Source of the DNA: Verrucomicrobiota bacterium
Lineage (GTDB): Bacteria; Verrucomicrobiota; Verrucomicrobiia; Opitutales; Opitutaceae
Assembly (NCBI GenBank): GCA_016222805.1
Contig: JACRQG010000005.1
Coordinates: 31,967-95,966 of the forward strand
Direction: 5' to 3'
Length of the DNA: 64,000 bases
Shown: piece by piece, positions 56,280 to 60,377 of the stretch
Numbering within the stretch: the stretch's first letter is position 1
Layout: each line of letters starts with the position of its first letter
The notes under the pieces: generated by a model
The model's database searches: none
Told to the model about the DNA's origin: nothing
What the model saw: only the letters and a program-made list of their open reading frames with translations
Program-made: the position numbers and the translations under genes

Positions 56280-57254
56280 TTAGACGTTGGTCAGGTCGGC
56301 GCGGCGCCGGAGGCGGCTCGACGCAAGCCCGTAGCGGTAGAACGTGCCGACGGGATCCGGGATGTTCTCGAGCACGCGGTTGATCTCCTTCTCCTCCCGT
56401 GCCCCAAGGTTGGCGCACAGCGAGGAGAGAATCTTCGCGCCCTGATCGCGCACCCGGGAGGTGGGTCCGAAGCAACCCGTGCAGGGCATGTTGCCGCCCG
56501 GGCACTGGGCCCCGCACCCGCTGCGGGTGGCCGGCCCCATGCAGACCACGCCCTGCGGAAGAAAGCACTTCTCTTCGTCCAGCACCTTCTGGTGCGGGCG
56601 AAAGAACTGCGTGAACGCGACGTCCGCGGGCCGGCTGGCCTTGCGGGGGCACTCGTCGCAGAGCGCGATGTCCGGCGCGAGCACCGAACCCTTCGGGGGC
56701 AGCCGGCCGGAAAGGAGCGCGTCAAAGGCGGCGCGGGTCAGATTCGGCGTCGGCGGACATCCCGGCAGGTAATAGTCGACGGCCACCACTTGATCCAGGG
56801 AACGGACGACGTGGCGCAATTCCGGCAGGTGCGGGCGACGCCCTTCCTCCTCTGTGACGGTCTGGGGACGCGTGCGGGCCTCGTTCACGACCGACGGCGC
56901 CTCCTCGTAGTTGAACCGCAGGATCGCCTCGCGCTCAAACTGGTTCGCCAGCCCGGGGATGCCGCCGAGATGGGCACAGGAGCCGTACGCGATCAGGTAC
57001 TGGCTCTTGCGCCGCAGCAGCACCGCCATCTCCTCCTGCTCGGAGGAGCGGATGGCGCCGTTGAGCAGCGTGGCGGTGATCGCCCGATCGGGCAGGGCCT
57101 CCAGGTCCCGGTACTTGAAGTCCATCGCCACCGGCCAGAGCACGATGTCCACCTTCTCCACCACTCCGAGGATGTCCTCGGCGAGGTCGACGACCGTCTC
57201 CTCGCAGCCGCCGCAGGAGGCGCACCAGTAGAACGCGACTTTGGGCTTAGACAT
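56280..57254 (-). CDS. mvhG: [NiFe]-hydrogenase small subunit (MvhG-like)
   Basis: A 324-residue iron-sulfur subunit that wires electrons away from the active site. Cysteine motifs: FYWCASCGGCEETVVDL (residues ~8-24), YGSCAHLGG, YYLPGCPPTPNL, ALCDECPRK, and a Cys-rich stretch CMGPATRSGCGAQCPGGNMP followed by CTGCFGPTS. These supply the three clusters expected for a MvhG-type protein. No Tat signal, consistent with a cytoplasmic enzyme. Its start overlaps the mvhD stop by 8 bp. Confidence 0.93.
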   Translation of the reverse strand: MSKPKVAFYWCASCGGCEETVVDLAEDILGVVEKVDIVLWPVAMDFKYRDLEALPDRAITATLLNGAIRSSEQEEMAVLLRRKSQYLIAYGSCAHLGGIPGLANQFEREAILRFNYEEAPSVVNEARTRPQTVTEEEGRRPHLPELRHVVRSLDQVVAVDYYLPGCPPTPNLTRAAFDALLSGRLPPKGSVLAPDIALCDECPRKASRPADVAFTQFFRPHQKVLDEEKCFLPQGVVCMGPATRSGCGAQCPGGNMPCTGCFGPTSRVRDQGAKILSSLCANLGAREEKEINRVLENIPDPVGTFYRYGLASSRLRRRADLTNV

Positions 57255-57807
57255 GGACTTCCTCCGGTTGGGCGGATGCCGGCGCGTCACCATCCGCGGG
57301 TGCGGCCTCGGCGGCGCGGCGCGCCAGGGCGATGATCTCCTCATCCCAGGACTCGAACTTCTCCGGCAGGCCGAGCGGCCCGAGAGCCTTGAGCTGCGCC
57401 GTCATCTCGTTGATGACGGCCTTCACGCGTTCGCCCTCCGCGGCGGAGATCCACTCGAGCCGCACACGCTCGGGGGCGATCCCGAGGTCCTGCAGGAGCC
57501 GGCGCAGGAGCTGAAAGCGCCGGAGCATCTTGTAGTTTCCCTCGACGTAGTGGCAGTCGCCCGGGTGGCAGCCGCCGATGAGCACCCCGTCGGCGCCGCG
57601 CGCGAGGGCGTCGACGATGAACTGCGGATCGACGCGGCCCGAGCACATCAGGCGGATGACGCGCACGTTGGCGGCGTACTTCAGGCGCGATACACCCGCC
57701 AGATCGGCGGCCGTGTACGTGCACCAGTTGCAGAAGAAGGCGACGATGCGCGGTGTCCAGGTGGCGGGGGGGGCAACGGGCGGAGAGGGCGAGGCGGAAG
57801 CGCTCAT
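57247..57807 (-). CDS. mvhD: MvhD-like electron-transfer subunit ([2Fe-2S])
   Basis: A 186-residue protein of the MvhD/FlpD family, which links hydrogenase MvhAG to HdrA. Conserved cysteines: FFCNWCTYTAADLAG (CxxC), RLMCSGRVDP and IGGCHPGDCHYVEGN (CxxxxC). The C-terminal part has a regular helical pattern plus an acidic end. The N-terminus SASASPSPPVAPPATW is a variable linker. Start ATG is chosen right at the edge of the inverted repeat that separates it from hdrA; the longer open frame upstream runs into that repeat. Confidence 0.93.
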   Translation of the reverse strand: MSASASPSPPVAPPATWTPRIVAFFCNWCTYTAADLAGVSRLKYAANVRVIRLMCSGRVDPQFIVDALARGADGVLIGGCHPGDCHYVEGNYKMLRRFQLLRRLLQDLGIAPERVRLEWISAAEGERVKAVINEMTAQLKALGPLGLPEKFESWDEEIIALARRAAEAAPADGDAPASAQPEEVHV

Positions 57808-57850
57808 GTGAAAAATCCGAAGTTCGAATTTCGAAATCCGAAACAAAGCC
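57808..57850. repeat. Left inverted repeat of the four-helix-bundle cassette
   Basis: Begins GTGAAAAATCCGAAG and contains spaced CGAA/CGAAA units ending in CCGAAACAAAG (57838-57848). The sequence is clearly A/T-richer than the surrounding genes. It is an imperfect inverted copy of 58332-58380. Confidence 0.6.
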
Positions 57851-57904
57851 AAGGTCTGAAGGCCCAACGAACCAAACCCGGCCAACCAGCCGACTTGCGC
57901 CGAC

Positions 57905-58276
57905 CTATTCGCTCCTCCGAACGATGGCGCCGAAGATACTGGTCAGCTCGGTGGCTTCCTGAACCAATGCGGCACGGGCGGACTCGCGTTCGTTGTCGTC
58001 GGCCAAAAAGAGCAGGCGCAGGAAGAAGCAGCTCTCCTTGGATTCCTTGCGGCAGATCTTTATCCGCATGACAAAATCCTTCCTGCTCAAGGCTTCGTTG
58101 GCTTCGATGTAGTTTGCCCCAACTGACCCGGAGGCGCGCACCAACTGCTTCGCGTCTTCGAGGTTGGCCAGCGTGCGCGGCAACTTCCGGACAAACACCC
58201 GGACCGCCATCGCAAAGCGATAGGTCCGGTCTTCGAGGTCGAAGCGGCGGGGTTTCTCGCCTGGGGAGGCATCCAC
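57905..58276 (-). CDS. Four-helix-bundle protein (S23 / rRNA-intervening-sequence family)
   Basis: A 123-residue protein with the strongly conserved family core FDLEDRTYRFAMAVRVFVRK, QLVRASGSVGANYIEANEAL and FVMRIKICRKESKESCFFLR. Proteins of this family were first found in intervening sequences of 23S rRNA genes and are related to Avd of diversity-generating retroelements; their function is unsettled. Here there is no rRNA gene and no reverse transcriptase. Starts with GTG in the selected frame. It lies inside the inverted-repeat cassette, in the same direction as the hydrogenase operon. Confidence 0.9.
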   Translation of the reverse strand: MDASPGEKPRRFDLEDRTYRFAMAVRVFVRKLPRTLANLEDAKQLVRASGSVGANYIEANEALSRKDFVMRIKICRKESKESCFFLRLLFLADDNERESARAALVQEATELTSIFGAIVRRSE

Positions 58277-58331
58277 GCTTTCCCATTGGTCGAAGTTTCG
58301 GTCGGCGCTCCACGGTGGTTTGTACCCGGAA

Positions 58332-58380
58332 TTGGGACTTGTTTCGGGTTTCGAGTTTCGGGTTTCGAGTTTTGAATCAC
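58332..58380. repeat. Right inverted repeat of the cassette, with a 14-bp tandem duplication
   Basis: Contains TTTCGGGTTTCGAG twice in direct tandem (58342-58355 and 58356-58369), preceded by TTGTTTCGG (58339-58347), the inverted copy of the CCGAAACAA in the left repeat, and ends TTTTGAATCAC, the inverted counterpart of the left GTGA end. The hdrA stop codon is contained in it. Confidence 0.65.
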
Positions 58381-60377
58381 TCCGACAGCACTCCCTCGAT
58401 TTCGCTGAACACCTCTTCGTCCTCGAAGAGGTTCTGGCCGATTGAGCCGGAGGGACAGGAGCCGACGCAGGTGCCGCAGCCCTTGCAGAGCGCCTCGTTG
58501 ATCACCGCCCGGTGCGTCGTGGCGTCGAAGGTGATCGCGGTGTACGGGCAGAGCGGGAGGCAGGACTTGCAGCCGCTGCAATCGGGCAGGATGTACGCGG
58601 TATTGGGTTCCTGCTCGACGTGCCCGCGGTCGATCAGCACGAGCGCCTCCGCGGCCGCCGCGCCGGCCTGGGCTACCGTGTCCGGAATGTCGCGCGGCCC
58701 CTGACAGCAGCCGGCGATGAAGATCCCGTCGGTGAAGGTGTTCACCGGGGCCAGCTTGGGGTGGCGCTCGAGGAAGAACCCCTCGGTGCCGCAGCTCATG
58801 TTGAACAGCCGCCGTACTTCCTGCGCGTCGGCCTGCGGCTCGAGTCCGGCGGACAGCACCACCATGTTGACCGGAATGCGCCGGACAAAGCCCGCCAGCG
58901 TATCCTCGACGCGGATGATCAGCTTGCCCTCCTCCTCGGGCGTCATCGCCCAGTCGGTGACCTCGCCGACGCGGCCCCGGATGAAGTGCACGCCCTCCTC
59001 GTTCAGCTTGTCGTAAAACTCCTCGTAGCTCTTTCCCGGGGCGCGGATGTCGATGTAGAAATTGTAGATCTCGGCGCCGGAATGCTCCTTCAGCAGGTGC
59101 GCGAGCTTCATCGAGTACATGCAGCAGACACGGGAGCACCAGCGGTTGGTCTTCTTGTCGCGGGAGCCGACGCAGTGGATGATGCCGATGGCCTTGGGCT
59201 GGGTGCCGTCGCGCAGGATCACCTCGCCGCCGGTCGGGCCGGAAGCGTTGACGAGCCGCTCCGCCTCCAGCGCGGTGTACACGTTGGGGAAGGACCCGTA
59301 GCCGTACTGGGGCGCCCGCTTCACGTCGAAGGTCTGGAAGCCCGTGGCGACGATGATGGTGCCGACCTGGAGTTCGCGGATCTCCTCCCGCTGCGTGAAG
59401 GTGATGGCCTTGCGATCGCCGCAGGCCTCGACGCACGTCTTCTTGCAGCGGTCGGTGAGGACGCCGCGCTTGAAGTTCAGGCAGACCTCCGGGTCGATGA
59501 GCACGACCTGCGGGGTCGACTGGGGGAACGGGATGTAGATCGGCTTTCGCTTGCCGAGGCCCTCGTTGAACTCGTCGACGAACTTCGGCTCCTTGTACAC
59601 GCAGTTGGAGATGCACTCCTGGCAGCCGGTGCACAGTTCCTCGTCGATGTAGCGGGGCCGGCGGCGGACGGTGACGGTGTAGTTGCCCACGTAGCCGTCC
59701 ATCTTCACGACGTCGGAACAGGTCCAGAGGGTGATGTTCTCGTGGGCGCCGACCTCGGACATCTTGGGGGTGAGGATGCACGCGGCGCAGTCCAGCGTCG
59801 GGAAGGTCTTGTCGAACTTCGCCATGTGCCCGCCGATGGTGGGTTCGCGCTCGACCAGGGTGACCTTGCGGCCCGCGTTGGCGAGGGTGAGGGCGGCATG
59901 GATGCCGGCGATGCCGCCGCCGACCACGAGCACGTCCGGGTGAATCGGCACCTGCTTGACCTCGAGCGGGCGGTGGTGGGCGACGCGCCGGATGGCGGCG
60001 CGCGCGAGGGCCTTGGCCTTGGCGGTGGCCTCGGCCCGGTCGGTGTGCACCCACGAGTCGTGCTCGCGGATGTTCACCATGTGGAAGAAGAACGGATTGA
60101 GGCCGCCCGCGGCGGTGGCCTTGCGGAACGTGTGCTCGTGCAGCAGCGGGGAGCAGGAGGCGACGACGACGCGGTTGAGCGCGAACTCCCGGATATCCTG
60201 CTGCACCAGCTCCTGGCCGGGATCGGAGCACATGTATTTGTAGTCCCGTGACAACACGACGCCGGGCAGGGTCTCGACGTAGCGAGCGACCTCCGGGCAG
60301 TCCACCATGCTGGCGATGTTGTGGCCGCAGTGGCAGACGTAGAATCCGATGCGGACTTCCTGCGAGGAGCTGACCAT
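58377..60377 (-). CDS. hdrA: Heterodisulfide reductase subunit A (HdrA-like, FAD and Fe-S)
   Basis: A 666-residue iron-sulfur flavoprotein. It starts with the HdrA N-terminal Fe-S domain (VRIGFYVCHCGHNIASMVDC), then an FAD-binding fold (VLVVGGGIAGIHAALTLANA), EREPTIGGHMAKFDKTFPTL with DCAACILTPKM, a ferredoxin-like insert ELCTGCQECISNCVYKEP, and two C-terminal [4Fe-4S] motifs: DCSGCKSCLPLCPYTA and LCKGCGTCVGSCPSG. HdrA is where flavin-based electron bifurcation takes place, sending one electron to ferredoxin and one to HdrB. Its stop falls in the cassette repeat, so the C-terminus could have been altered slightly by insertion. Confidence 0.95.
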   Translation of the reverse strand: MVSSSQEVRIGFYVCHCGHNIASMVDCPEVARYVETLPGVVLSRDYKYMCSDPGQELVQQDIREFALNRVVVASCSPLLHEHTFRKATAAGGLNPFFFHMVNIREHDSWVHTDRAEATAKAKALARAAIRRVAHHRPLEVKQVPIHPDVLVVGGGIAGIHAALTLANAGRKVTLVEREPTIGGHMAKFDKTFPTLDCAACILTPKMSEVGAHENITLWTCSDVVKMDGYVGNYTVTVRRRPRYIDEELCTGCQECISNCVYKEPKFVDEFNEGLGKRKPIYIPFPQSTPQVVLIDPEVCLNFKRGVLTDRCKKTCVEACGDRKAITFTQREEIRELQVGTIIVATGFQTFDVKRAPQYGYGSFPNVYTALEAERLVNASGPTGGEVILRDGTQPKAIGIIHCVGSRDKKTNRWCSRVCCMYSMKLAHLLKEHSGAEIYNFYIDIRAPGKSYEEFYDKLNEEGVHFIRGRVGEVTDWAMTPEEEGKLIIRVEDTLAGFVRRIPVNMVVLSAGLEPQADAQEVRRLFNMSCGTEGFFLERHPKLAPVNTFTDGIFIAGCCQGPRDIPDTVAQAGAAAAEALVLIDRGHVEQEPNTAYILPDCSGCKSCLPLCPYTAITFDATTHRAVINEALCKGCGTCVGSCPSGSIGQNLFEDEEVFSEIEGVLSE

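Follow-up and report, generated by a model that had tools for sequence, protein, structure and literature searches.

An S23-family gene between inverted heptad arrays at an hdrA-mvhD junction, a proposed protein-operon counterpart of rRNA intervening sequences

An S23 gene between hdrA and mvhD

The window analyzed here is a stretch of 64,000 nucleotides from a genome of the Verrucomicrobiota. On its minus strand, an hdrA-like gene is followed by a repeat arm, a gene of the S23 family, a second arm and mvhD (Table 1). The arms are 35 nt long, inverted relative to one another, 77% complementary and 492 nt apart, in agreement with the preliminary description of this locus, which had reported imperfect inverted repeats flanking an S23-family gene between hdrA and mvhD. 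The perfect 14-bp tandem duplication that it placed in the right repeat is also present (58341-58354 and 58355-58368). The borders needed correction: the right arm, thought to contain the hdrA stop, ends 3 nt short of that codon (58377-58379), and the left arm, thought to touch the mvhD start, ends 4 nt from the ATG (57805-57807). The reported GTGA ends are a four-base match, the right one being part of the end of hdrA itself.

Table 1. Features of the S23 unit and its neighbors in the window.
Feature	Coordinates	Strand	Remarks
S23 / four-helix-bundle gene	57905..58276	-	123 aa from GTG; PF05635, TIGR02436 and PDB 2rld matches
Upstream arm, 5' of the S23 gene, just after the hdrA stop	58339..58373	-	tandem heptads GAAACTC/GAAACCC
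Perfect 14-bp tandem duplication	58341..58368	.	two heptads inside the upstream arm
Downstream arm	57812..57846	-	diverged inverted copy, 4 nt before the mvhD ATG
hdrA-like gene, left neighbor in the transcript	58377..60377	-	FAD and 4Fe-4S domains
mvhD / FlpD-like gene, right neighbor in the transcript	57247..57807	-	PF02662, 2.1e-55

The S23 protein was assigned by its matches to PF05635 (E 8.9e-9) and TIGR02436 (E 2.7e-15) and, by sequence, to the solved structure PDB 2rld (5.4e-10). Its start codon is uncertain, the open frame being longer than the reading from GTG. The domain search of this protein returned PF05635 only, with no nuclease domain and no Y1 tyrosine transposase. A tRNA search of the window found none, and searches with PADLOC and PHROGs gave no matches.

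Taken alone, the inverted pair is moderately unusual for the window: among equally spaced positions, its score is equaled or exceeded at 16 of 2486 when the flanks are 150 nt, and at 290 of 2474 when they are 200 nt and gaps cost less. The heptad motif TTTCGRRTTTCG, allowing at most one mismatch, occurs seven times in the window and always at the S23 unit, relative to 0.98 expected; this count was reached in 0 of 100 shuffles. It is the heptad structure, and not the inverted pair alone, that sets the unit clear of chance, and the arms are arrays of a 7-nt unit rather than conserved transposon ends.

The 7.9-Mb genome from which the window comes carries four PF05635 genes. In this genome the heptad motif is almost confined to the window site, with four of seven matches at the S23 unit, two inside genes and one in a short intergenic stretch, and a search for the arm motif found no second copy of the window arms as a unit. 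Of the four S23 genes, three reach an inverted-pair score of at least 36 in 150-nt flanks and the fourth (on C27) scores 35; against local nulls with 200-nt flanks, the three S23 genes other than that of the window are unexceptional (10/165, 11/228 and 25/228 positions as high).

Across 76 genomes, mvhD was matched in eight: the genome of the window itself, four relatives with 66-78% identity and three weak cases (35-39%). At the syntenic junction of those four relatives, a comparison that the preliminary description had proposed, hdrA abuts mvhD and the S23 gene is absent from all of them; possession of the gene at this exact site by all relatives, which would have spoken against an inserted unit, is not what these junctions present. 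The hdrA-mvhD gap holds a short heptad stretch in G041 and G029 and none in G034 and G002. No relative carrying the cassette at the window's site was found among the 76 genomes searched, and the closest relative of the window S23 protein in the genus shares 46% identity. In G041 (L015), heptad arrays also occupy two other gaps of the same hdr/mvh operon without an S23 gene, and one gap around mvhD resembles an inverted pair.

Inverted arms around S23 and GxxExxY genes

Within the genus of the window, an inverted-arm score of at least 36 in 150-nt flanks was found at 66 of 88 S23 genes, relative to 1 of 204 other ORFs of the same loci (Mann-Whitney p 3e-33 for S23 against control scores). The 88 genes derive from 129 PF05635 matches in 27 genomes, the 41 left out being mostly weaker ones; the ORF caller was a simple one, and the control ORFs include some false genes. 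Both arms were periodic, defined as at least 15 of 21 matches at a lag of 6-8, in 51/88 S23 genes versus 1/204 other ORFs. When each locus supplied its own geometry-matched null, 44 of 87 rows fell in the top 2%, a count that includes a misplaced window row. The same property extends across phyla: among the best 80 of 546 confirmed relatives in a genome_contigs scan, two of which were without enough flank, 45 of 78 S23 loci scored at least 36 versus 6 of 197 control ORFs. Clear arms were seen among these best 80 of 546 in Mesorhizobium, Clostridia, Treponema, Cloacimonadota, Patescibacteria, Planctomycetes, Acidobacteria and Bacteroidetes. No strong inverted pair lies within 150 nt of 22/88 genus S23 genes and, in the cross-phylum set (best 80 of 546), of 33/78. 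The upstream neighbor is co-oriented in 55 of the 71 S23 genes with a called neighbor and the downstream counts are 32 versus 32, rough figures given that the crude ORF caller misassigned the window's own neighbors.

Thus, the window unit is one member of a widespread class in which gene and repeats belong together. The preliminary description had proposed a search for its repeat pair around other four-helix-bundle genes; inverted arms are indeed widespread there, but their words are locus-specific, so that it is not the same pair that recurs.

The best period was 7 in 33 of 48 stricter genus arm pairs and in 31 of 33 cross-phylum pairs (from the best 80 of 546; 73 of the 80 loci, with Mesorhizobium thinned to one). 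The words themselves vary by locus (GTAGCGA, AGTTGAG, GGACTAA, GAAGACG, AGAGCCC, etc.), each S23 site having its own heptad word, usually matched between the two arms. In the genus, the upstream arm is G+A-rich on the coding strand (G 612, A 482, T 247, C 191), and at one site, represented by L131 and L134, the G/A richness is reversed. Where a site is shared between species, the match between the two arms of one locus exceeds the average between-species match of the same arm in 43 of 48 loci (p 1.7e-7); the within-locus match beats the best between-species same-arm match in only 20 of 48 (p 0.69), so that much of the arm matching could be short-term inheritance. Since the arms are locus-specific, they are not shared ends that a trans-acting transposase could recognize.

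A scan of 1331 ORFs for inverted flanks with a score of at least 38 returned 74, of which 56 are S23-like, and the others include a GxxExxY protein (PF13366/TIGR04256). In the window's family, GxxExxY loci had inverted arms in 18 of 29 cases versus 1 of 30 controls (30 best-listed loci, one without enough flank), and in other genomes from several phyla in 9 of 25 versus 0 of 30 (28 of 30 loci, three without enough flank). These arms typically consist of three copies of a CACGAAAnn-, CACAGAGnn- or GCAGATnnA-like unit. Their best period is 9-10 in 15 of 18 arms from the window's family and is less clear in the several-phyla sample (9-10 in 5/9), while the arms have a period of 6-8 in 59 of 66 S23 cases and in 1 of 18 GxxExxY cases (Fisher p 2e-11). 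Individual GxxExxY genes with inverted arms are found at L102:1455-1844 and at L371 (G000:C28:164746-165090), the latter with a period of about 9 nt, and the window's genome has four PF13366 genes.

We tentatively suggest, while holding it rather doubtful, that S23 (PF05635) and GxxExxY (PF13366) genes form one cassette class, in which the protein family would set the array period (about 7 versus 9-10 nt) and the word would be free, being re-made in both arms by a protein-directed process. What appears most interesting is that the sequence of the borders changes and yet the two remain matched, and that the period seemingly depends on the protein family. Common intergenic repeats, i.e., the heptads and the CACAGAGnn- and GCAGATnnA-type units, would in this way be tied to two small gene families.

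The YhcG nuclease, suggested by locus L224 as a further arm-bounded family, was rejected, with arms in 0 of 17 cases (18 of 20 loci, one without enough flank). Strong inverted heptad-like flanks were also observed at an acyl-CoA dehydrogenase gene (L222:4411-5571) and at a 305-aa gene of no assigned family (L244:955-1872).

Gene-less arrays, site fidelity and empty junctions

Heptad arrays also occur without the gene. A member of the same genus, G019, has 132 overlapping heptad motif matches and 13 S23 genes. In 400 kb of each genome, 106 arrays were counted in G019 and 76 in G008, relative to 4 and 17 in base-shuffled sequence, the G019 stretches having been picked to include heptad hits and the G008 sequence being one continuous stretch; 64 of the 106 and 56 of the 76 lie inside called ORFs. 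G019 yielded 15 inverted pairs, 14 without a gene and one around an S23 gene, and nine direct pairs, while the G008 stretch had no inverted and three direct pairs. Gene-less shells thus abound in G019 but do not occur in the stretch of G008, and because the inverted pairs of G019 are mostly gene-less, an array can exist without the gene. The preliminary description had regarded repeats without the gene as evidence against a mobile unit; such repeats do occur in relatives (G019 and the junctions of G041 and G029), whereas in the window's own genome the motif is almost confined to the S23 unit. The other nine genus members searched have 0 to 7 heptad motif matches, and in a single-contig genome seven matches lie on one strand within 9 kb (G030:C1:687829-696668).

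When both flanks were matched, the genus S23 genes fell into 16 groups that share a site plus 21 singletons, one of which is the window gene; the largest site group contains two neighboring S23 sites. Mapped on the S23 tree, these 16 groups require 16 changes, compared with a minimum of 15 and a shuffled mean of 49.7, and 11 of 15 listed groups form one side of a branch and four do not. This near-minimal number of changes indicates that S23 lineages keep largely to their own sites. At L141 (G000:C50:467681-469430) and its orthologous loci, a 13-member site group, S23 genes flank a kinase-like gene on one or both sides; loci of this type recur across the genus with two different S23 lineages and differing arm words.

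In Mesorhizobium, filled and empty versions of one junction could be compared. The flank of one Mesorhizobium cassette, in a gap between genes named mmgC and mmsB from context, was matched in 119 of 119 genomes, one of them weakly. Of the 70 junctions read, 45 were empty, 22 had an S23 gene, one was a remnant that has lost the upstream arm and most of the S23 gene (L341), and two were gene-less shells with inverted heptads (L291 and L351). The filled alleles comprise 21 full ORFs of 120-122 aa and one interrupted by Ns (L303), and in the nearest filled/empty pair (G076 and G179) the flanks are 97% identical. The empty gap is 20-26 nt after the stop and contains GGAG in 43 of the 43 parsed (two more were unparsed). 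Filled alleles replace this gap but retain GGAG: among the 24 filled, remnant or shell junctions whose start could be located, 23 have it at most 22 nt from that start, the single exception being a junction where the located start may be a wrong ATG. A GGAGCRCC-like sequence before the start is common to the filled alleles and missing from the empty alleles inspected. The search for target duplications proposed in the preliminary description came out negative where it could be made: comparison by eye of filled and empty Mesorhizobium junctions revealed none, the relatives at the window's own junction being too distant for this to be judged.

The occupied state is scattered over the flank tree, with 18 changes relative to 18.9 when shuffled and no clustering beyond chance on a weakly resolved tree (5 of 67 branches starred). 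The S23 protein at the mmgC-mmsB junction is under strong purifying selection (dN/dS 0.067; 135 pairs, 17 of 18 extracted sequences). At one Mesorhizobium site the word is mostly retained; L353, from one species, has an upstream arm that has changed to a different word and a downstream arm that has not. A second cassette with different heptad words occupies the nuoC-nuoD gap (names read from the flanks) in a Mesorhizobium and in Xaviernesmea (L281; L280/L271).

Origin of the matched arms and relation to known systems

We favor a reading, which we put only slightly on the doubtful side of even, in which an S23 cassette sits in an intercistronic gap with locus-specific heptad arms copied at the DNA level and with the S23 protein acting at the arms. 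We infer both this copying and this action. Slippage within an arm, together with copying from one arm to the other through template switching, gene conversion or fold-back synthesis, would make the arms and keep them alike. The S23 protein may act at the arms or at their hairpin in maintaining or spreading the cassette. Transfer between genomes probably proceeds mainly via flanking homology into empty alleles of the same junction rather than by hopping to new sites.

The arms might instead be matched because they pair in the transcript, with RNase III excising the S23 segment between cistrons and selection keeping the stem. The rRNA intervening sequence of Coxiella burnetii is a precedent for such an arrangement, being described as having an S23p ORF, tandem heptamers and a terminal stem of 28 bp and as being excised by RNase III (PMC4990558); the arms of the window unit are base-paired to one another in its predicted fold, and a cut between cistrons would presumably be tolerated. 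Selection for an mRNA stem predicts that G:U-type mismatches between arms exceed A:C-type ones. They do not: 36 G:U-type versus 57 A:C-type mismatches were counted in the genus, 27 versus 27 in the cross-phylum arms (from the best 80 of 546) and 28 versus 32 in the GxxExxY arms. In addition, the copy numbers of the two Mesorhizobium arms are not significantly correlated (rho 0.31, p 0.21, 18 loci), and the RNA fold of the whole window unit is no better than that of 20 shuffles (z -0.65). An RNA stem as the cause of the matched arms is therefore unsupported, which makes DNA-level copying between the arms the preferred explanation and leaves an mRNA intervening sequence unlikely.

We give a similarly low probability to a homing-like element, in which each S23 lineage would have one site and spread into empty alleles by homologous recombination, possibly with a nuclease in trans. 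The fidelity of S23 lineages to their sites, the patchy occurrence at one Mesorhizobium junction, the nuoC-nuoD cassette in two rhizobial genera and the GGAGCRCC-like sequence of the filled alleles, missing from the empty alleles inspected, are all consistent with it, but only PF05635, and no nuclease domain, was found in the protein, and sporadic loss would give a similar pattern. The transposase-less mobile unit of the preliminary description, a MITE-like element moved in trans, is quite improbable. Part of that proposal stands, as gene and arms form a unit in the intercistronic gap, the four relatives found to have this junction lack the gene and a Mesorhizobium S23 unit is sporadic at one junction, and the gene-less shells with inverted arms (G019; L291 and L351) and the several sites per genome would fit it as well. 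Against it, the arm words are locus-specific, S23 lineages do not hop between sites on the time scale of the genus, target duplications were not seen at the Mesorhizobium junctions, relatives carry heptads without the gene, and the window's own genome has no second copy of its arms as a unit. Finally, the repeats could be ordinary intergenic heptads, with an S23 gene between two of them by chance. Heptads are indeed common and mostly gene-less in some relatives, above all in G019, and the inverted pair of the window is by itself only moderately unusual; the excess of armed S23 genes over control ORFs in the genus and in the cross-phylum set (best 80 of 546) and the lack of arms at YhcG genes make this very improbable. 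For the window repeats, a chance origin is rejected by their heptad structure together with the family-wide test.

Several known systems resemble the cassette with its locus-specific arms. REP/BIME sequences with RAYT genes likewise have inverted repeats on both sides of a small gene, and these repeats are also found scattered without it. RAYT is a Y1 transposase with sequence-specific REPs; the S23 cassette differs from this in that its protein is a four-helix bundle, its word changes from site to site and no Y1 transposase was found in its gene. Relative to MITEs, gene-less copies are shared, whereas no target-site duplication was seen at the Mesorhizobium junctions and the terminal repeats differ from locus to locus. 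The bAvd protein of diversity-generating retroelements belongs to the same superfamily, and an S23 protein of a genus member matches NF033474 at E 4.3e-8, below the cut-off of that model (33.4 vs 80 bits); the window S23 protein has no match to NF033474 (Avd), and its adjoining genes are hdrA and mvhD. The intergenic TAACTGA heptamers of Beggiatoaceae and others (PMC4679880) are also short tandem heptamers near start codons. Unlike the S23 arms, they have one fixed word and are almost only direct repeats, and the abstract gives no link to S23 (PMC4679880). In the literature covered, with subscription journals mostly outside it, we found no account of locus-specific inverted heptad arms around S23 or GxxExxY genes.

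A close likeness is to the rRNA intervening sequence of Coxiella burnetii, located in helix 45, in which tandem GACAGAT heptamers of varying number precede the start of the ORF (PMC4990558). As far as that account describes it, it shares with the cassettes an S23-family ORF, complementary termini, tandem heptamers upstream of the ORF in variable copy number and a sporadic distribution. The window unit has both the S23/PF05635 ORF and the complementary termini; it sits between hdrA and mvhD rather than in a 23S or 16S rRNA helix, and exact matching of five universal rRNA motifs found none in the S23 loci examined. The cassettes further differ in lying between protein-coding genes, with heptad arrays on both sides and their own word at each site, and the S23 gene of Mesorhizobium is under purifying selection, whereas the Coxiella ORF is described as undergoing reductive evolution (PMC4990558). 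We regard the S23 cassette of the window, made of the same parts, as the protein-operon counterpart of the rRNA intervening sequences. More than 25 years on, what those sequences do and how they arose is still described as unclear (PMC4990558). Should the same cassette lie between ordinary genes in many bacteria, with borders that remain matched as their sequence changes, the matter could be tested in cultivable hosts, e.g., Mesorhizobium, which offers filled, empty and shell versions of one junction.
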